In this document: one piece after another, positions 12,159 to 63,709 of the stretch
How the letters are laid out: every line of letters begins with the position of its first letter
How positions within the stretch are numbered: position 1 is the stretch's first letter
From: a virus
IMG/VR virus record: IMGVR_UViG_3300025889_000088
Span: 1 to 64,000 of that record
Direction: 5' to 3' (one strand)
Length of the DNA: 64,000 bases
Position numbers and translations under genes: made by a program
The notes under the pieces: generated by a model
What the model saw: only the letters and a program-made list of their open reading frames with translations
Told to the model about the DNA's origin: nothing
Database searches by the model: none

Positions 12159-12533
12159 TTATCCACCTAAGTATACTTTTAATACTGGGATTAGGCTCTG
12201 CATAAAAGCACCAGCCAAGAAAACATTCATCACAATCATAGCACGGTCATTCCACAGAACACCAACGTATGCCCAACCAATCATACTAATAACACCCAAA
12301 ACAACATTCCAAGGTGTGATATCAGCAGCAGTAAGCATTGCACCGACGATACCTATTAATGCCGCCGCCCACTTGACGAACCAAGAGACATCATGAATAG
12401 GAGTTTGAGTTACAACAGTAGCAACGGCAAGCTGTTCTTCATAGTGTTCTACTTGTTGCTGTAGTTCTTCTACTGTTTGCGCTTCTGTGTTAGCTTCACT
12501 TATTAGCTGTTCAACTTCATCTTTAGTCATCAC
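12159..12533 (-). CDS. membrane protein with N-terminal coiled coil (124 aa)
   Basis: Residues 1-40 are a Glu/Gln-rich helix (EVEQLISEANTEAQTVEELQ). Three hydrophobic segments follow at about 52-70, 75-93 and 98-118, so the protein should sit in the host inner membrane with a cytoplasmic N-terminal helix. Function unknown. It overlaps the 131-aa gene by 11 nt. Confidence 0.6.
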   Translation of the reverse strand: MMTKDEVEQLISEANTEAQTVEELQQQVEHYEEQLAVATVVTQTPIHDVSWFVKWAAALIGIVGAMLTAADITPWNVVLGVISMIGWAYVGVLWNDRAMIVMNVFLAGAFMQSLIPVLKVYLGG

Positions 12534-34290: not shown

Positions 34291-34847
34291 CAGTATGTCT
34301 CCTTGATTTTATCACAGATGTTTAGTTTCTTTGCTTCTTTTGCGTCTAACCATACATCCGTTGCTGGTAGAAGCTTCTCACGGATTTGCTTATCGGATAA
34401 TCCAGTACATTTCTTATAATGGTCAACCATCCGCTTGCTTGTTAGTTCGTATTCTTTTACCACACCGTATAACTCGTGTTCCTTTCCGAATGAACCCCAA
34501 GAATACTGATGGGATAGGATAGATGTATTTGGCGTAAGAACACGATGCCCTTTCTCGCCAGCAATAAATGTAAGCAACCCACAAGAAGCAATCATACCAA
34601 CACCAACGGTTCGTACAGGAATAGATGAACCTTTCATCGTATCAATCAGGGCGAAACATGCATTCACATCACCACCTGGAGAACAGATGATTAGGGTCAG
34701 ATGTGATTTCTTTTTAGGTGCTAGGTTTTCATTGATAATCCACTCAACGATTGGTTTGACTGTATCTTGTGAAAACTCACTCATCATAAGATACATGCCT
34801 TTTTCACCCATTGGTGGACCTTGGTTTTGATTTTCTTGATTGCTCAT
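34290..34847 (-). CDS. clpP: ClpP-like serine protease
   Basis: Proteolytic subunit of a Clp-type protease. The catalytic triad is visible: Ser88 in M-I-A-S-C-G, His113 in SILSHQ and Asp164 in ATDVW; oxyanion SPGGD at 56-60. Length 185 aa is typical. The Ser is followed by Cys instead of the usual Met/Ala, a minor variation. It is near clpA (35829-38132) with only two small genes between. T4-like phages use a different protease for head maturation, so this is more likely partnered with the phage ClpA; use as a prohead protease is an alternative. Confidence 0.9.
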   Translation of the reverse strand: MSNQENQNQGPPMGEKGMYLMMSEFSQDTVKPIVEWIINENLAPKKKSHLTLIICSPGGDVNACFALIDTMKGSSIPVRTVGVGMIASCGLLTFIAGEKGHRVLTPNTSILSHQYSWGSFGKEHELYGVVKEYELTSKRMVDHYKKCTGLSDKQIREKLLPATDVWLDAKEAKKLNICDKIKETY

Positions 34848-34848
34848 A

Positions 34849-35178
34849 TTATACCTTTTCTACTTTTGGTTTTCTTCCAGGCTTTTTGCCTACTTTGCGT
34901 GGTGTACCGTCTTCATTTAGATTGAACGCTTTAGAAATACGATCCAAGTTCATTCCACCAACATGAGTAATATCTTCATGAGTAAACGAGAAGAAGATAT
35001 TTGGTTCACGCATATTATAGCCTTTGAACTTAGATGTATTTACCCCAGTGAGAATCAGTTCCTTAGAAACTCGCACAGGGTCACCACCAATACCACGGGA
35101 TGTAACAACGGCAGTGACTTTGGTTTCTTCTTGAATCACGTTTAGTTCAATAAGTTTATTCGCTAATGTTAAGTTCAT
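34849..35178 (-). CDS. unknown protein with AT-hook-like tail (109 aa)
   Basis: Start placed at ATG 35178 (MNLTLANKLIELNVIQ), preceded by AGGAC; an upstream start would lie inside the previous gene. The central strand pattern reads VTAVVTSRGIGGDPVRVSKE and ends NIFFSFTHEDITHVGG. The C-terminus RKVGKKPGRKPKVEK resembles an AT-hook/basic DNA-binding tail. Function unknown. Confidence 0.55.
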   Translation of the reverse strand: MNLTLANKLIELNVIQEETKVTAVVTSRGIGGDPVRVSKELILTGVNTSKFKGYNMREPNIFFSFTHEDITHVGGMNLDRISKAFNLNEDGTPRKVGKKPGRKPKVEKV

Positions 35179-35860
35179 TTTTTGTCCTATATTCATCGAT
35201 TTTTTTAACAGATTGGGCTGCATAGAACCCAAGGATGGTCATTTGCTTTTCGTCTTCAACATAAAGATATGGTCGTGAACCATACCAGAAACGCCCTCGC
35301 CTGATGGCGTTTTGCCATTCACCAGTAAACCTAAATGGTTCCTTGCCATCTTTACACTGGCTTTCGAAGTAATCCACAAAATGTTTTACATCATCAATCT
35401 CCCTATGGTCAATGAATACCTTGAAACGATACTTTTTGAAAGGTAAGTTATTACACACAACAATATTACGCTCTGAATCTTCGGTCAATGGAACAGGGTA
35501 ATATTCAAGTTCAGTAATATACACTGGTTTTGAGCTTACGACTTGGTGCCTATCATTATAGTCTTCCATCTTTCCAAGAAACCGCTGTAAGTCCTCTTCA
35601 CTCCTAAAGTAAGCGTACAACGAATACCACTCATATCTTGTTTTCACATCATCGAACTCAGCAGCAGTACGGCGTATATCTGCCACTATACTGTTGCTTC
35701 TATTCCAACGGGGATGATCCTCGTTTATTCTGATTCTCAGTTTGAATGCATACTTACGCCACCATAGTTTCTTTGCTTCGGTGATAACACATCCATAACT
35801 TCTAACAGTATTGATAACAGCCGTTTTCTCATGAATCGACTGTAATGATTCCTTGTTCAT
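35156..35860 (-). CDS. unknown protein (234 aa)
   Basis: Start set at ATG 35860 ([17 protein letters not shown]), with AGAGG upstream, overlapping the clpA end by 32 nt. Rich in aromatic and basic residues (TEAKKLWWRKYAFKLRIRIN and FWYGSRPYLYVEDEKQMTIL). Two similar strand-helix units (around 30-100 and 140-220) hint at an internal duplication, unproven. Not recognised. Confidence 0.55.
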   Translation of the reverse strand: MNKESLQSIHEKTAVINTVRSYGCVITEAKKLWWRKYAFKLRIRINEDHPRWNRSNSIVADIRRTAAEFDDVKTRYEWYSLYAYFRSEEDLQRFLGKMEDYNDRHQVVSSKPVYITELEYYPVPLTEDSERNIVVCNNLPFKKYRFKVFIDHREIDDVKHFVDYFESQCKDGKEPFRFTGEWQNAIRRGRFWYGSRPYLYVEDEKQMTILGFYAAQSVKKIDEYRTKNELNISE

Positions 35861-38132
35861 CAATAACCTCTTTTTCATTGATTTCCACTGGTAATGGTTT
35901 GGTAAACTCAAATACAACTTCGTTATCCTTATAGTCTACCACAACAATGCTACCCTTGTCAACCTTTTCGAACAGTAGTTTCTTGGACAGGGGAACCTTG
36001 ATTTCTTGGTCAATGGTACGAGCCAATGGACGAGCGCCCATCTTTGGATCGAAACCAGTATCCACAAGATACTCTACTAACGCATCTGTGGTACGGATTT
36101 TCATACCACGTTCACGGAGTAGATCGTTCACATCGTTCATAAACTTGGCAACAATCTTCTTCATAGAAAGTTTGTTCAGTTTACCGAACTTACATACCGC
36201 ATCTACACGGTTACGGAACTCTGGTGCAAAGAAGATTTCATATGCTTTATCATCTTCCCCTTCTTTCTCAAGGGAACCGAACCCAATAGAGTTTTTCTCC
36301 ATTTCGGCAGAGCCAAGGTTACTGGTCATAATGATAACACAGTTACGAGCATCGGCACGTTTGCCGTTGGCGGAAGTTACATACCCTTCATCCATCAACT
36401 GTAGAAGGACATTCATTACGTCAGGGTGTGCTTTCTCAACTTCGTCAAATAGGACAACAGCGTGTGGGTTCTGTTCAATCTGCTTGACCAACAGACCACC
36501 ACCGATATTACCGTCATCGTGCCCGACATAGCCAGGAGGGGCACCAATGAAACGGGCTACAGTATGCTTCTCTTGGTATTCACTCATATCAAAGCGTAGC
36601 AGTTTCATCGTTAGTTCACGGGACAACTGTTTAGCAAGTTCAGTCTTACCAACACCCGTTGGACCCATAAACATAAAGGTGCCGATTGGTTTATCGTGTG
36701 CTTTTAGACCAGCCTTGGCGACAAAGATTTTATCCAAGATGGTATCAACCACATTATCTTGACCGAACACATTGGTTTTGATATTTGGCTCAATATCAGC
36801 AAGATTTTCACTCTTTTCCTTTTCATCCATAGATGATACAGGAACACCAGTGATACGACTTAGTTCTCGTAGGATATCTGCTTTGCGGATAACAAAGTTC
36901 TTACGACCAAGTAGGCGTTGTTTAGCACAGGCACTATCAATAAGGTCAAGTGCCTTATCTGGTAGTTTCTTATCAGTCTGATAACGGACACTATAATCCA
37001 CCGCAGCGTGAATAGCATCCTGTTTGATAGCCTTGGCACTATGGAACTTTTTGAAATATCCAGCAAGACCATTCAAGATTTCTTTCGCAACTTCGGGGGA
37101 TGGTTCATCCACAGTTAGACGATAGAAACGGCGCATCAACGCACGGTCTTTCTCAAAACTATTGGAATATTCTTCCCAAGTAGTTGAAGCAATAACCTTC
37201 AAGTCACCACGGGAAAGAGCGGGTTTAATCATATTGGCGAAGTCTGGACCCCCAGCACTACCACCAGCACCCGCGCCACGCATCGTATGTGCTTCGTCAA
37301 TGAAAAGGATTGCCTTACCTTTGGCTTCCATAGCCTCAATAACTTCCTTGAGTTTTTCTTCAAACTCACCACGGAACTTTGAACCAGCGACCAGCGAACC
37401 AATATCAAGGTTCCATACAGTCCAACCTTCAAGGTAGTCTGGAACTTCACCTTTATTGATTTTTAGGGCAAGACCTTCGGCAATAGCAGTTTTACCAACG
37501 CCAGGGTCACCGACCATTAGAACATTTGACTTGGTGCGTCGAGCCAAGACTTGAGCAATATCATCAAGTTCTTCTTGGCGACCAATAACAGGGTCAATCT
37601 TACCCTTGGTGGCACGGTCATTTAGATTGGTACAGTATTCATCAAGGATATCATCTGCTTGTCGGTCGTTCATTTTGCCTTTCCTGGCACCTTTTTTGCC
37701 ACCGCCTACTTTTTTCTGTAGGGCATTCACAACTTCTTCTTTGGAGTTTACATATTTCAAAAGGAAATAGCAAGCGTGTGAGTTTGTTTCAGCAAGCATA
37801 CTTAGATATAGGTCAACAGCATCCATTTTGGTTCTACCGCTGAATAGAACCTGTGTATAAGCACGATTGAACACACGTTCAAGGGCGTGTGTCTTTTGTG
37901 GATTATTTGTAGTAACTTTGGGGATGTCATCGCGGTTTTGTAGATAAGTTTCAAGTTCTTCCCGTAGTCCATCAATATCTATATCTAGTTCAGTAAGTGC
38001 GGCAATGAAATCTTTGTCTTGAAGAACTCCGTGAAGAAGATGCTCAAGGGTTACATATTGGTGTTTTAGTTTGGATGCTTTGACAAGCGCCTTATCAATA
38101 ATATTATTGATTTCTGGACTTTCTTCAATCAT
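35829..38132 (-). CDS. clpA: ClpA-like AAA+ unfoldase
   Basis: Class I Clp ATPase of 767 aa. N-terminal Clp repeats lie at 1-150 ([14 protein letters not shown]). AAA-1 has Walker A G-D-P-G-V-G-K-T at 208-215 and Walker B LFIDEAH at 276-282. AAA-2 has G-P-T-G-V-G-K-T at 490-497 and [13 protein letters not shown] from 560. The tripeptide I-G-F at 616-618 ([11 protein letters not shown]) is at the position of the ClpP-docking IGF/IGL loop, and no ClpB-type middle domain is present. So it should thread substrates into ClpP. Overlaps dnaJ by 4 nt (ATGA). Confidence 0.93.
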
Positions 38133-38972
38133 GATTTTGCCTTTCTGATGTAGTCTAACTGTTCTGTTGATAGGTCAGTTGGTGTCTTGACGATAATCTG
38201 AACTAGAATATCGCCTGTGTTATTTCTGAAACGAAGACCCTCATTTTTCATTTTGAGGATTGCTCCGTATTGTGTTCCCTCTGGTATCTTGAGTTTTAGA
38301 TTCTTACCCGATAATGTTTGAATGATTTTTTCGGTGCCAAGTATAGCATCAATACTGTCTATAGTAATATTAGTTAGAAGGTCAAGTCCTTTCTTGACGA
38401 AACTCTCGTTATTCTTGATGTTTATTGTAACAAATAAATCGCCTCTTGTCAAGTCTTTATTTACATTGTCGCCAAGACCAGAATACTTGATGGTTTGCCC
38501 ATTTTCTATGTGGGCTGGAATGTTTATCTTTACTAGTTCTCTATCGCCATTACTCATACGCACACTTAAATGCTTCTCAATATCTCCGTCACCCTGTGCT
38601 AGTTCTTGTAGGTCTATGGCAAGGTTGATATTTAGATTATGGTTTCTTGCGTGTCTATGGCGTGTTCTAAATCCACCAGCGTTTTGACGAAACAGTTGTT
38701 CTTCCATTTGAGCAAATATATCTTGCATACCCATATGGTCTGAACGGAAATGAAATGAGTTCCCATTCATATCACCAAACGGATTAGGTGTGTCGTATTC
38801 TCTGCGTGTTTCTGGGTTTTTTAGGGTTTCATACGCTTCATTGATTTGTTTGAACTTTTCTTCATCGCCGCCCAAGTCAGGGTGATGCTGTTTAGCCAAC
38901 TTTTTATATGCTTCTTTGATTGTATTATCAGAAGCGTTCTTTTCAACGCCCAGAACTTTGTAATAGTCCATA
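38129..38972 (-). CDS. DnaJ/CbpA-like J-domain co-chaperone
   Basis: Start set at ATG 38972 (M-D-Y-Y-K-V-L-G-V, the usual J-domain opening) rather than the GTG at 38986. The J domain has HPD at 30-32. It is followed by a G/F-like linker and two C-terminal substrate-binding domains (GDIEKHLSVRMSNGDRELVKI and LRFRNNTGDILVQIIV), without zinc-finger CxxCxGxG repeats. That is the type II/CbpA layout. It should stimulate host DnaK. First gene of an operon with clpA; sigma70-like promoter at 39007-39035. Confidence 0.9.
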
Positions 38973-39006
38973 CTACTATTTACCACATAATATTATTCAC
39001 AGTAGT

Positions 39007-41567: not shown

Positions 41568-41595
41568 CTCTGAGTATCTTTATGTAGAGAATGAA

Positions 41596-41630
41596 GGGTG
41601 GCTATAGTGTAATATTGATTATAGCCACCC
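41596..41630 (-). terminator. strong hairpin after the transporter genes
   Basis: GGGTGGCTATA - 13-nt loop - TATAGCCACCC, an uninterrupted 11-bp stem. On the minus strand it follows the tctC-like stop (41671) by about 40 nt and precedes the late element of the next unit. The following TTCATTCTC is only a weak U tract. It probably bounds the tctA-tctC transcript. Confidence 0.6.
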
Positions 41631-41646
41631 CAAAACGTAACCGCCA

Positions 41647-41662
41647 CTGCTAAAAATAGCAG
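41647..41662 (-). terminator. small hairpin in the tctC 3' region
   Basis: CTGCTA - AAAA - TAGCAG (plus-strand reading), a 6-bp stem just after the tctC-like stop, upstream of the larger hairpin. May add to mRNA stability or termination. Confidence 0.35.
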
Positions 41663-41670
41663 TATTATTC

Positions 41671-42726
41671 TCATTCAACCAGTTCTGGTTTGTATACGCT
41701 GCTCAATCCAAGAGCTTTTTTGTTGAAATCAATCAATGTTTTCAACGCATCTTCTGTGATAAATGTCATTAGTGTATCACGGTGCTTGTTTCCTTCTTCA
41801 CCAATAATCCATTCATATTGTCCAACTTTCTTTTGGATAGCAGCAATACTCTTTGGGTCATTAGCCATATCAGTCAATGCCTGACGTAGTTTCGCTAGAT
41901 TTGGGTTACCTTTACGTACCCACAACGCTTTCTGTAAACCATCGCGGAAAGATTTAACAAGCTTATACGCATCATACAATGAACCAGATGGTTCGGAACC
42001 GTATGTTTCTTTAAATAAGATTTCCATTTGAAACCCTGGATAGTTAGGATCATCACTATGGGTGCCTGTCGCTGGATTTAGGATACCATGATGAAACCAC
42101 ACTTCACTATCGCCAGTATCAATACTTGGCTGTACGTGCTTTTTAAATGCTGCTGGATTTTCCCGTGTGCCATTTAGTTCACCACGCTTATATGCTAGGC
42201 GGCGTTGACCACCAGACATACCGTGAACCCAAGTAACATTATCCTTGAAGCATTGGACATATTCAGCAGTTGTTTTTCCACCGCCGCATAATAGTAGTGT
42301 CATAGCAATACCTTCTGGAACCATACCGGAGCCAGCGGCAAACTTTACTTTCTCGCCTTTCACATATTTTGTCTTATGACCCACAATGATGTTAAGGTTC
42401 ATTAACCCAACACTATCGTAGTCAGCATAGTTATAATCTACTTTCTCTTGAAGGAAAGAAACACCATTACCACCATGGGAAACCATGACAGTCTTATCGT
42501 CGTGTTGCAGTTCATTGTGGAACTTATTAAACCCTGGAATGTCTCTTGCTCCAGGAATATGTTTCAATACAATCCTTTCTCCAAGTTTCTTTTCGAGTTC
42601 AGCAGCAACAATTTGTGCCCAAACACTGGTGCCGCCGCCTGGTTTTTGTGGAATGACAAATGTATAATCTGCCAATACGGGTGTAGCGAATAAAGCAATA
42701 AATGCTACTAATAGTAATTTACGCAT
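41671..42726 (-). CDS. tctC: TctC/Bug-type periplasmic substrate-binding protein
   Basis: Periplasmic binding protein of a tripartite tricarboxylate transporter. A signal peptide, MRKLLLVAFIALFATPVLA, cuts before DY. The mature start FVIPQKPGGGTSVWAQIVAA matches the P-x-x-P-G-G-x-x-D/V-x-x-A-R/Q family opening, followed by the substrate-lobe pattern. Length (351 aa) fits the family. It overlaps the TctA-like gene by 8 nt, so they form one transport unit. The ligand cannot be predicted. Confidence 0.8.
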   Translation of the reverse strand: MRKLLLVAFIALFATPVLADYTFVIPQKPGGGTSVWAQIVAAELEKKLGERIVLKHIPGARDIPGFNKFHNELQHDDKTVMVSHGGNGVSFLQEKVDYNYADYDSVGLMNLNIIVGHKTKYVKGEKVKFAAGSGMVPEGIAMTLLLCGGGKTTAEYVQCFKDNVTWVHGMSGGQRRLAYKRGELNGTRENPAAFKKHVQPSIDTGDSEVWFHHGILNPATGTHSDDPNYPGFQMEILFKETYGSEPSGSLYDAYKLVKSFRDGLQKALWVRKGNPNLAKLRQALTDMANDPKSIAAIQKKVGQYEWIIGEEGNKHRDTLMTFITEDALKTLIDFNKKALGLSSVYKPELVE

Positions 42727-44143
42727 AGTTTGTTTTTCCTTTCATAATGCTATAAATGAATGTAATAATAGTCAAAGTAATAAGAGCAATAAAAAGATAT
42801 CTGTCGCCCAACATATCCCAGTTATATATGGTGAATAACTGTATGGATAAATTTTCTACTTTGTCTGCTAAGATGAATGCGACCAAGAATGCTGGTCTAC
42901 TGTATTTATAAGACTTCATCGTAAAACCAAGTACACTAAAGATGCCTAATACAACCAAGTCTTCCCAACCACCCGTATATTGCATACTTGCCCAAACAAT
43001 CATCGCAAGCAATAAGGGGAAATAATATACATACGGTACAGATGTAATCTTGCATACCAGATTTACGAATAATAACGAAAAGATACCAACAAATAATGTT
43101 GCTGTAAGGAAACCAATACTCAGACTTTGGAAGAACTTATCATCATACATCAAATCTGGTGATCCAAGATCGAAACCCATATATAAGAATAGTCCCATTA
43201 GAACTGCGGCAAATGGTGCGCCAGGGATACCAAATATAACGGTTGGAAGCATACTGGTTGCTTTCTGTGCGTTGTTGCTACCCTCTGGACCAATCACGCC
43301 CTTGATATTACCATTACCAAACTGTTCATTCTTATTCAACGCAACGGTCTGACCGTATGCCAACCAATCGCTAACTGCCCCGCCAAGTCCAGGTAATAGG
43401 CCAACAATCGCACCAATAAATCCGCCTCGCAACGATAGCCAACGATTCTGCCATACCGCTCGCATACCTTCTATGCGCTCGCTCCTAACAACATGACTCG
43501 TTGCCTGTCGTTTTTTGAAACCTTCAATCAACTCTGGTACAGCAAATAATCCAGCAACAACTGGAATAAGTTGGATACCATCTTGTAGATAAAACCATCC
43601 AGCCGTAAAACGTGGGTCATTTGTAGTCGGGTCAACACCAACCAACCCAACGAATATACCAGCCCCAATCGCTACAATACTTCGGACAGGTTTATCGGTT
43701 GACAAAAACCCAACTGTAGCCAACGCTAGAACAGTAAATGCCCATAGCTCTGGTATACCAAAGAATAGCACAAGTTCGGTATAGTATGGTAAGAATAGGA
43801 ATACGATGCCGCCCCATAGCAATCCATTCACCGTTGAGGTTGTTACTGCTGCTGATATGGCATATGATGCTCTACCCTGTTGAGCAAGCGGGAAACCGTC
43901 TACCATCGTTGCTGCTGAACTGTTAGCACCAGGAATACCAAGTAATATACTTGTGAAGCTATCTGCTGTGGTGGATGCTGCTACCACTGCCATTAGGAAT
44001 ATGACACCAGCATATGGGTCAGCAATAAACACAGGCAAAACTGCGTATGTTGCTACTAGTCCTGTAGTTGCTCCTGCTGCTGGTATAATACCAATCACCA
44101 GCCCATATAGGATGCCAGCGATTAGTGCTGTTATTTCTATCAT
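42719..44143 (-). CDS. tctA: TctA-type transporter membrane subunit
   Basis: Large membrane subunit of a tripartite tricarboxylate transporter (474 aa; 10-12 hydrophobic segments). Family signatures: GILYGLVIGIIPAAGATTGL near the N-terminus, SILLGIPGANSSAATMVDG, GAIVGLLPGLGGAVSDWLAY and PTVIFGIPGAPFAAVLMG; the repeated G-I-P-G motifs mark TctA. No TctB-like 4-TM gene is adjacent, so the phage version would borrow the host subunit or work without it. A rare type of gene for a phage; part of a late unit with the sulfotransferase-like gene. Confidence 0.88.
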   Translation of the reverse strand: MIEITALIAGILYGLVIGIIPAAGATTGLVATYAVLPVFIADPYAGVIFLMAVVAASTTADSFTSILLGIPGANSSAATMVDGFPLAQQGRASYAISAAVTTSTVNGLLWGGIVFLFLPYYTELVLFFGIPELWAFTVLALATVGFLSTDKPVRSIVAIGAGIFVGLVGVDPTTNDPRFTAGWFYLQDGIQLIPVVAGLFAVPELIEGFKKRQATSHVVRSERIEGMRAVWQNRWLSLRGGFIGAIVGLLPGLGGAVSDWLAYGQTVALNKNEQFGNGNIKGVIGPEGSNNAQKATSMLPTVIFGIPGAPFAAVLMGLFLYMGFDLGSPDLMYDDKFFQSLSIGFLTATLFVGIFSLLFVNLVCKITSVPYVYYFPLLLAMIVWASMQYTGGWEDLVVLGIFSVLGFTMKSYKYSRPAFLVAFILADKVENLSIQLFTIYNWDMLGDRYLFIALITLTIITFIYSIMKGKTNYA

Positions 44144-44667
44144 TATGGTTTATATGTGGCGATACTTATATCGTCCTTATGAGTCCATTGTAACCCAAAT
44201 CGCTCAACAAAGTCAACTATTAGTTTATTTTGTGCCTGGATTTTTTCAATCATAACGTAATCGTCTTCATACCAATCGTAGTTTGGATATGTGATATCCC
44301 ATCCGCCAGCTTCCTTCCACCAGTTATAGCATTTCCTATTATTACGATAAACAACTGTAATCCAATCTTTTGGAAACTTTTCTATAATCTCGTCAAACTT
44401 ATAACACCATTCGTGGGATTTGAGTAAAGGTATTCCGTATCCTTTATATGGACTACAAAGATTATCATAGTCAAGGTCTGCTGGAAACTCCATTCCAGTT
44501 CCAAAGTATGCGCCGATATGACCACCGAAATCATGATGTGTGTACTTTCTTTCGGGTGTTCTATCTGATATATCTATTGCTGGGTGTTTTTCAATCTCTT
44601 GTGCTACACCACTCCACCTACTACCGGGGGCACCACAAAAGAATATTTTATCTGGTAATCCTATCAT
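44143..44667 (-). CDS. sulfotransferase-like P-loop protein (174 aa)
   Basis: The N-terminal KIFFCGAPGSRWSGVAQEIE resembles the PAPS-binding loop of small sulfotransferases. The middle LLKSHEWCYKFDEI and WITVVYRNNRKCYNWWKEAG, then a Tyr/Trp-rich block, fit the same family pattern. Substrate unknown. It is coupled to tctA (1-nt overlap), and its ATG is 5 nt from a TATAAATA octamer, with no ribosome site. Confidence 0.6.
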   Translation of the reverse strand: MIGLPDKIFFCGAPGSRWSGVAQEIEKHPAIDISDRTPERKYTHHDFGGHIGAYFGTGMEFPADLDYDNLCSPYKGYGIPLLKSHEWCYKFDEIIEKFPKDWITVVYRNNRKCYNWWKEAGGWDITYPNYDWYEDDYVMIEKIQAQNKLIVDFVERFGLQWTHKDDISIATYKP

Positions 44668-44680
44668 CTAAATATTTATA
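44668..44680. promoter_or_regulatory. bidirectional late promoter element
   Basis: CTAAATATTTATA contains the palindrome TAAATATTTA. Minus strand: TATAAATA at 44673-44680, 5 nt before ATG 44667. Plus strand: CTAAATA at 44668-44674, 5 nt before ATG 44680. The two start codons are separated by only 12 nt and neither has a Shine-Dalgarno sequence. Confidence 0.65.
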
Positions 44681-52906: not shown

Positions 52907-53277
52907 TAGAAAATCGCCGTTTGTGAATCCGCTACATAATCATCTTCTGGCTCTTCCCATTGCGTACCAAGAATATCATTGTTATCTGCCCTGCGAAGTT
53001 CAACAAGTTCCTTACCGTCAATCTCATACTTGACTGAACGAGTCCAACGTCCGTGGGCAACCAATACCCACTGTCCTGGCTCAATATCCTTCTGCTCTGG
53101 GCCAACGGCATAGACCTTTGCCCAACGAGGACGAAGACCACGCTCACGCCCATCGTCACCTGGAAGAATAAGTCCAGCTTTTGTCTTACGCTCACCAAAG
53201 TTCATTTCATATACCAATACATGGTCCTTGATTGGTCGGATTTTTTGACCACGGATAATAGTGTTATTTACAGGCAT
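52906..53277 (-). CDS. GroES-like co-chaperonin
   Basis: A co-chaperonin fold (123 aa): IRPIKDHVLVYEMNFGERKT, AGLILPGDD, a variable loop, then WAKVYAVGPEQKDIEPGQWV and VKYEIDGKELVELRRADNND. The layout R-P-x-x-D-x-V-L-V...G-x-x-x-P-G...V-x-A-V-G-P-G is that of GroES/phage gp31-type rings. It should cap host GroEL to fold phage proteins. The segment between the first two strands, which forms the mobile GroEL-binding loop, reads FGERKTKAGLILPG. Confidence 0.85.
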   Translation of the reverse strand: MPVNNTIIRGQKIRPIKDHVLVYEMNFGERKTKAGLILPGDDGRERGLRPRWAKVYAVGPEQKDIEPGQWVLVAHGRWTRSVKYEIDGKELVELRRADNNDILGTQWEEPEDDYVADSQTAIF

Positions 53278-62320: not shown

Positions 62321-63394
62321 ATGCGTATATTTATTGTACTGGCACTTCTGCTTATTCCCATCGCATCATTCGCTCATTCGAATGAAGAGTTTCTAGACAC
62401 AGTTGATGTTGTAAGAAAATCGATTGTTGTTGTCGAGGTTAGTCAAGAACAACCTACATTGTCTGGAATGACACCAGGATCGCTACTTGATAACTACCTA
62501 AAGAAAAACAAGCCTGAGAAGACAGGTTTAGGTACTGGGTTTATTATAAACGGTAAAGTTCCCTCAAAACACAAGTATATCATAACGAATAACCACGTAA
62601 TCGACGGAGCAAAGAAAATAAAGATTTACTTCGAAGAAGATTCAACCCCTCACATTGCTACTTTAGTAGGTACTGACCCACTCAGTGATATTGCTGTTCT
62701 AAAAATCGATGAGAAGGTATTGGAGAGCGTAGAACCAATGTCGTGGGGAGATAGTAATAAGTTACGCCCCGGACAAGAAGTTTGGGCTATCGGGCATCCG
62801 CAAGGATTAGCTTGGACAGTCAGTAAGGGTGTTGTAAGTCACAAGAAAAGACGCATTTCCAATGGTTGGCAGACAGTGGTACAAAGCGATGTATCTATCA
62901 ACCAAGGGAACAGCGGTGGTCCCTTGATGACAATGGATGGTAAGATTGTCGCTATCAATACATTTATTCTATCCAAGTCTGGCGGAAGTATCGGATTGAG
63001 CATGAGTGTTGATAGTGAAAATGCTCAGTATGTCGTAGCCAAGCTTATTGAGAATGGCAGAATTGATCGCCCTAGAATGGGAACCCATCTTCACTATGAT
63101 CCCGAAACACAACAGGTGTCCATTGAGAAAGTTGAAGAAGGTAGTGCAGCGGAAGAAGCTGGGATAGAGCCAAAAGACGTAATCCTAGCAGCAGACGGTA
63201 AAGAAATCCATCACGTAAATGATCTCTTCGATATCCTTCAATATAAATCACCATACGAAGATATGGATATTACTCTGTTAAGAGAAGGGACAACTATTGA
63301 GTTGACCATTACACTTGGTTTATTAGGGAAGGAAGAAGCTAAAGAGCAGGCAGACGAACTCTCAAATCCGAAAACTGAACCTAAGTCAGATTGA
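62321..63394 (+). CDS. HtrA/DegP-like serine protease with PDZ domain
   Basis: A secreted or periplasmic trypsin-like protease. Start chosen at ATG 62321: the N-terminus MRIFIVLALLLIPIASFAHS is a signal peptide, and the upstream in-frame start at 62291 would disrupt it. Catalytic His92 (TNNHVID), Asp123 (PLSDIAVLK) and Ser198 (NQGNSGGPL), then one PDZ domain (VEEGSAAEEAGIEPKDVIL). A Lys/Glu/Asp-rich C-terminal tail follows. Degrades or chaperones misfolded periplasmic proteins; a phage-coded copy could protect the envelope or act on host proteins. Confidence 0.92.
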   Translation: MRIFIVLALLLIPIASFAHSNEEFLDTVDVVRKSIVVVEVSQEQPTLSGMTPGSLLDNYLKKNKPEKTGLGTGFIINGKVPSKHKYIITNNHVIDGAKKIKIYFEEDSTPHIATLVGTDPLSDIAVLKIDEKVLESVEPMSWGDSNKLRPGQEVWAIGHPQGLAWTVSKGVVSHKKRRISNGWQTVVQSDVSINQGNSGGPLMTMDGKIVAINTFILSKSGGSIGLSMSVDSENAQYVVAKLIENGRIDRPRMGTHLHYDPETQQVSIEKVEEGSAAEEAGIEPKDVILAADGKEIHHVNDLFDILQYKSPYEDMDITLLREGTTIELTITLGLLGKEEAKEQADELSNPKTEPKSD

Positions 63395-63709
63395 GAAACT
63401 TGTACCGCAACCACAACCAGATTGCGCCAAAGGATTAGAAAAGTCAAAACGTGAACCCATTAGGTCAGTTTTCCAATCGATTTGAGTGCCAGCAATAGCA
63501 AACATACTGGCACCATCAACCACGATTTTTACACCGTCAAAGTCCAATACTTCATCATCTTCTTGGACTTCATCCAAAGATATTTCTTTTAGAAGATAGT
63601 TGAAACCAGCACACCCGCCACCAGATACTCCGAATACAAATGCTTCGTGCCCATAATCTTCCATTAGTTGGGAAAAATGCTTCGTCGCAGATTCAGTCAA
63701 TGTTATCAT
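63386..63709 (-). CDS. A-type iron-sulfur carrier (IscA/ErpA-like)
   Basis: HesB/IscA-family carrier (107 aa). The three conserved cysteines are present: Cys33 in GGGCAGFNY, and Cys99/Cys101 in SGCGCGT. It receives and delivers Fe-S clusters. Convergent with HtrA, overlapping by 9 nt, and it overlaps the partial methyltransferase by 1 nt. Fe-S carriers occur in large marine phages and may support phage or host metalloenzymes. Confidence 0.9.
   Translation of the reverse strand: MITLTESATKHFSQLMEDYGHEAFVFGVSGGGCAGFNYLLKEISLDEVQEDDEVLDFDGVKIVVDGASMFAIAGTQIDWKTDLMGSRFDFSNPLAQSGCGCGTSFSI

Follow-up and report, generated by a model that had tools for sequence, protein, structure and literature searches.

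A phage-encoded pair of TctA and TctC proteins without detectable TctB in a large marine phage and its relatives

Organization of the locus

The window analysed here covers the first 64,000 of the 94,519 bases in a virus record, and carries two genes of the tripartite tricarboxylate transporter (TTT) family on its minus strand. The first is tctA (42719-44143), encoding the TTT large membrane subunit, a protein of 474 aa that matches PF01970. The second is a divergent tctC (41671-42726), which encodes a predicted secreted solute-binding protein of 351 aa, assigned by its fold. The genes overlap by exactly 8 nt (42719-42726), as was described in an initial annotation made from the sequence alone. 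That annotation also took the pair to be a separate two-gene unit, which proves not to be so. A gene for a sulfotransferase-like (ST) P-loop protein (44143-44667, minus strand) overlaps tctA by 1 nt (TAATG), and the unit is therefore ST-tctA-tctC, with at least three genes, ST being the first. The ST relative in another viral locus, L004, matches Sulfotransfer_3 with E=3.5e-5, just under the cut-off, and in 23 of 54 eligible loci an ST-like gene is no more than 50 nt away from tctAC.

The putative T4 late-promoter-like octamer TATAAATA is found on the minus strand at 44673-44680, 6 nt before the ATG at 44667. The late octamer reported upstream of the pair thus exists, and it precedes the start of the ST-like gene, not tctA. 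It is not enriched in the window (7 copies against 4.55 expected, with at least 7 in 19 of 100 shuffles), and was therefore rejected as proof of late expression. The octamer is also present in L002, L004 and L005. Since it partly coincides with, or directly adjoins, the beginning of the divergent gene, its conservation is not independent evidence. On the 3' side of tctC there are two hairpins on the same strand, a small one of 8 bp just past the stop codon (41645-41664), and a larger one at 41595-41631 with 11 Watson-Crick pairs and one GU pair, in agreement with the 11-bp hairpin noted originally. The region containing both folds with -31.3 kcal/mol (z = -5.25 against shuffles), and the larger hairpin is a possible terminator or mRNA 3' stabiliser.

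The DNA polymerase is T4-like and closest to that of the large Sinorhizobium phage Phosso (45%), followed by Agrobacterium phage Atu_ph07, which is why the record may be a piece of a larger genome. In this large marine phage, tctA and tctC lie with lysozyme and virion genes on one side and PhoH on the other, consistent with the earlier placement between a lysis cassette and PhoH. The order PhoH, divergent methyltransferase, ST, tctA, tctC, two virion proteins and lysozyme is identical in the window, L002 and L004, is kept with small additions in L005, and recurs in large part in L010, L015 and L095. An assembly chimera with host DNA, an artefact foreseen in the initial annotation, is excluded because the same flanking phage genes occur in the same order in several independent viral contigs; the phage-specific TctA clade (100% support, see below) also speaks against it. 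The pair thus has the location in a phage genome, with conserved synteny, that is characteristic of an auxiliary metabolic gene.

It is worth adding that the window also holds a sizeable set of protein-quality genes, namely ClpP-, ClpA/B-, DnaJ-, GroES- and Fe-S-assembly genes (34293-38986, 52909-53277 and 63389-63709, all on the minus strand). The Fe-S-assembly protein is of the A-type (PF01521, 61.8 bits). Further along the record there is another inner-membrane transporter, an SbmA/BacA-like peptide transporter (83180-84226, plus strand; L022:3180-4226), which matches PF05992 with 379 bits.

Identity of TctA and TctC

The reading of the 474-aa protein as TctA is confirmed by its match to PF01970, with 316 bits against a cut-off of 28.9 and residues 5-420 aligned to profile positions 2-422. 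No significant match was found among PDB folds, and therefore no solved structural relative. TTT proteins of this type have the motif G-x3-G-x3-G-x2-P-G-x-G in both TM1 and TM7 (PMC5812351). The TM7 motif is intact in the phage protein, as is the region E287-N290-N291. The TM1 motif is incomplete: its glycines and proline are kept and the G following the P is replaced. Every phage or phage-like MAG row that covers the position has another residue there (one phage row has a gap), while the glycine is present in 38 of 39 fused and 32 of 32 unfused cellular TctAs, fused here meaning joined to TctB. Its loss could mean an altered TctA function. D61, D259 and W260 are common to phage and fused TctA, and absent from unfused TctA.

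The 351-aa protein has a Sec-like N-terminus, MRKLLLVAFIALFATPVLA, read as a signal peptide of about residues 1-19 (42670-42726, minus strand), with low model confidence for residues 1-20, and it has the opening PGGGT. It is missed by the family models of Pfam, NCBIfam and PHROGs, and has no match to PF03401, the Pfam model for TctC, even at E=10; nearly the same holds for the cellular TctC of the fused type. A profile built on phage TctC reaches the TctC-type protein BugD with E=1.2e-4. AlphaFold2 gives a confident model (pLDDT 92.9), which in Foldseek matches the solved TTT binding proteins MatC, BugD, TphC, Rpa4515 and 2dvz with TM scores of 0.5-0.65, the best being 2dvz (E 8e-12) and MatC 6hke (E 2e-11). 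On the basis of this predicted TctC/Bug fold we take the protein to be a divergent TctC. The original assignment as TctC is accordingly upheld by fold (E about 1e-11) and by the BugD profile match, and not by the Pfam and NCBIfam models. The possibility that both proteins belong to unrelated families, also raised in the initial annotation, does not apply, given the PF01970 match and the TctC fold match.

Absence of TctB

A TTT system also has a small subunit with four TM segments, TctB, either separate or fused, and none was found in the phage. The phage TctA stops at profile position 479 of 479, with no tail where a TctB domain would start. A search with PF07331 found no TctB in 40 viral records. 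A profile for the fused type of TctB found none in 31 viral records, and in three cellular controls it picked up TctB both as a fusion and as a separate protein. The records searched, 31-40 in number, extend up to 316 kb, and all of them are possible fragments. TctB is poorly conserved, and a very divergent TctB or an unrelated substitute could escape profile searches.

Some loci have an insert between tctA and tctC. These were considered as TctB and rejected, the inserts being other proteins: barrel-like, 2OG-oxygenase-like, methyltransferase-like and other soluble proteins. A 117-aa protein encoded near the pair in some phages, c31, was rejected as TctB for want of profile similarity.

Cellular relatives

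The phage TctA profile was searched against two proteobacterial classes, represented by 369 and 372 genomes. Nearly all of the best matches are proteins of 570-750 aa, with C-terminal tails of 165-215 aa that contain four predicted TM segments. The TctB model PF07331 is matched by 26 of 28 of these tails (best E 5e-14), from which it is clear that the nearest cellular relatives are TctA-TctB fusions. Both phage proteins are kin to this type. A GGxxxW signature is common to phage TctC and the neighbouring cellular fused-type TctC, which scores 55-118 bits against the phage TctC profile.

The phylogeny suggested at the outset was calculated. All phage TctAs, together with a few phage-like MAG contigs, form one clade (100%), nested within the clade of fused proteins (99%). 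Constraining the phages to be the sister group of the fused proteins as a whole gives a tree that is not rejected either (p-AU 0.53), so that the phage TctA may have lost TctB or may have branched off before the fusion. Recent capture from a SAR11-like host was rejected, since in genomes related to a SAR11 MAG that has a phage-like contig the TctA is for the most part of the ordinary, unfused kind. One alphaproteobacterial-class genome has three tandem TctC-type genes before a single fused TctAB (L147/L229; G074:C62:6805-9590).

Distribution among viruses and selection

In two scans of viral sequences TctA was detected at 19 loci and TctC at 94, and 80 of the latter were retained. After dereplication there were 77 loci with TctC, the window included, and 71 of them also have TctA, the two genes being nearly always adjacent or in one operon. 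Four of the six loci without TctA look cut by a contig edge near tctC; the other two, L061 and L062, have no tctA anywhere in records of 71 kb and 205 kb. In these two the phage-type tctC lies beside glutamine-amidotransferase-like and ferritin/RNR-small-chain-like genes.

Across the viral loci, identity to the window proteins falls to about 44%. Median dN/dS values, for pairs at 75-99% identity, are 0.079 for TctA and 0.091 for TctC. The genes are thus under purifying selection and, as is characteristic of auxiliary metabolic genes, maintained by it; a neutral passenger is rejected by dN/dS values below 0.1. Among annotated phage records, the TctA copies are just 25-29% identical and some of the records are clearly bacterial; no TctC was found in these records.

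One 316-kb virus record (L269, G014) has, besides a pair of the window type, a second and different TctA (L269:5488-6828; PF01970, 234 bits), after which comes a further secreted protein that matches no family (L269:6893-7810). This is possibly a second TctB-less type. Phage-type tctA-tctC genes are also found in a Marine bacterium B5-7 MAG (L103) and an Omnitrophota MAG (L105), on contigs whose genes mostly look cellular (YcaO, Fe-S, radical SAM), for which phage-to-cell transfer and binning error are both possible explanations.

Clues to the substrate and accessory genes

Cellular loci of the fused type often carry a homologue of the 4-oxalomesaconate-tautomerase (OMA tautomerase)/PrpF family, found in 15 of 20 fused loci against 1 of 20 unfused (Fisher p about 1e-5). 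A homologue of the tricarballylate dehydrogenase TcuA is present in 6 of 20 against 0 of 20 (p about 0.02), both p values being uncorrected for relatedness of the loci. The name 4-oxalomesaconate tautomerase comes from NCBIfam in L109, the protein being a PrpF relative. These neighbours suggest C6 tricarboxylates as the substrate of the cellular fused type. By analogy, a C6 substrate (aconitate-, tricarballylate- or citrate-like) may carry over to the phage type, whose relatives here share 35-37% identity with it and are separated from it by a long stem branch.

Two phage lineages have a gene for a secreted, porin-like beta-barrel between tctA and tctC (L076:4129-4686, L077, L081:9374-9964, L098). 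The barrel of L076 matches Porin_4 over the cut-off (E=1.1e-9), and that of L081 matches OMP_b-brl under it (3.5e-5). L017 has a weak barrel-like match (DUF2490, E=0.003) just upstream of tctA, and L018 likewise has a weak barrel-like gene. In 23 of 46 loci a putative 2OG-Fe(II) oxygenase, with an HxD...H...R pattern, weak profile support and one annotated phage homologue, is encoded no more than 1.5 kb from the pair; its relative in the window record (88115-88648) is far from tctAC. Small DUF6552 membrane proteins, relatives of one encoded in the window (12162-12533, minus strand), are encoded immediately after tctC, or not far from it, in several phages.

Possible function

Our preferred reading, which we consider reasonably probable, is that the window phage and a wide set of its relatives encode a reduced TTT system of TctA and TctC alone, acting as an importer during infection. 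Transport itself, its inward direction, function without TctB and action during infection are what we infer. In the periplasm of the infected cell, secreted TctC would capture a carboxylate and pass it on to TctA, for transport through the inner membrane driven by an ion gradient. Once imported, a C6 acid would feed into the TCA cycle at aconitate and give 2-oxoglutarate, which would supply energy and amino acid synthesis as well as the putative 2OG-dependent oxygenases of the phage itself. An extended version, more speculative and put forward tentatively, is that phages shed the TctB part of a fused TctAB system and so obtained a working importer of two proteins, a change in the TM1 motif of TctA compensating for the loss, and that some lineages added an outer-membrane barrel, so that one operon would provide a path for C6 acids across the whole envelope to the 2-oxoglutarate pool.

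The initial annotation proposed that the phage uses the host TctB or none. The finding of no TctB in the phage fits this, and use of the host protein is without positive evidence. We regard it as unlikely that the pair is not autonomous, with phage TctA (or TctC) joining a TctB or TctAB of the host. Cyanophage PstS, thought to feed the host Pst system, offers a parallel; two viral records have tctC without tctA; and ordinary TctA is present in 16 of 61 genomes related to the SAR11 MAG that has a phage-like contig. TTT systems are moreover described as tripartite, and the small subunit of the related TRAP transporters is essential (PMC5812351). Set against this, the cellular relatives have TctB fused to TctA and so offer no free TctB of that kind, and most of the phages retain a TctA of their own, which is strongly constrained.

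That a small membrane protein of the phage stands in for TctB is much less probable. The candidates are c11, a DUF6552 protein of the family present in the window record, and c31, which lies next to tctC in some loci; c11 adjoins the pair in 6 loci and c31 in 5. Neither is general, no such gene is near tctAC in the window, and c31 lacks similarity to TctB profiles. Scarcely more credit is due to a role other than import, such as sensing, blocking of a competitor's receptor or export of acids during infection. The TM1 PG motif is altered in all phage copies, and TTT binding proteins can join signalling, as BctC does with BctDE (PMC5812351), but the TM7 motif and E287-N290-N291 are intact, tctA and tctC are kept together, and the outer-membrane barrels that join the cassette in some phages suit uptake. 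Misassembled host DNA or a neutral passenger is hardly conceivable, in view of the shared phage flanks in independent contigs, the phage-only clade and the low dN/dS.

Comparison with known systems

In most known cases of phages altering nutrient uptake, what the phage supplies is a binding protein that serves a transporter of the host; in this one it supplies a binding protein together with a permease, and for organic carbon. Phage PstS relies on the host permease, whereas in the present system the permease is phage-encoded as well. The phage may in this way tap the surroundings of the infected cell for carboxylates. The pstS gene of marine cyanophages is likewise a phage gene for a periplasmic nutrient-binding protein (PMC6359870). 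For viral tctA, a literature search outside subscription papers and bioRxiv found one earlier report, on SUP05 viral contigs (PMC4164917), and a review citing it. The passage on tctA in that report gives a domain match only, on contigs identified without a reference, and describes no tctC, TctB or pairing (PMC4164917).

The function of TctB has been called unknown, a TctAB fusion has been reported in one case, and the idea of TctA as core and TctB as accessory is still argued (PMC5812351). A recurrent and selected combination of TctA and TctC without detectable TctB is thus a natural test of the need for TctB. The archaeal stand-alone TctA (arCOG04469) resembles the phage protein as a TctA that may work without TctB, but is cellular and mostly without TctC too, unlike the phage pair (PMC5898192). 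The classical TctCBA systems (TC 2.A.80; Salmonella TctCBA, Bordetella BctCBA) also encode a PF01970 TctA together with a secreted protein of TctC/Bug fold. The phage system differs from them in being phage-encoded, in lacking TctB, in having a TctC outside PF03401 and in the loss of the TM1 P-G motif. Among the searches run, the nearest cellular TctA is that of the fused TctAB and TctC systems of Rhodobacteraceae and other proteobacteria (L109, L113, L187, L222). Their TctA has a C-terminal 4-TM TctB domain, which the phage protein is without, and their loci are often beside OMA tautomerase/PrpF and sometimes tricarballylate genes, which the phage loci do not have; the diagnostic TctA residues and the GGxxxW type of TctC are the same in both.
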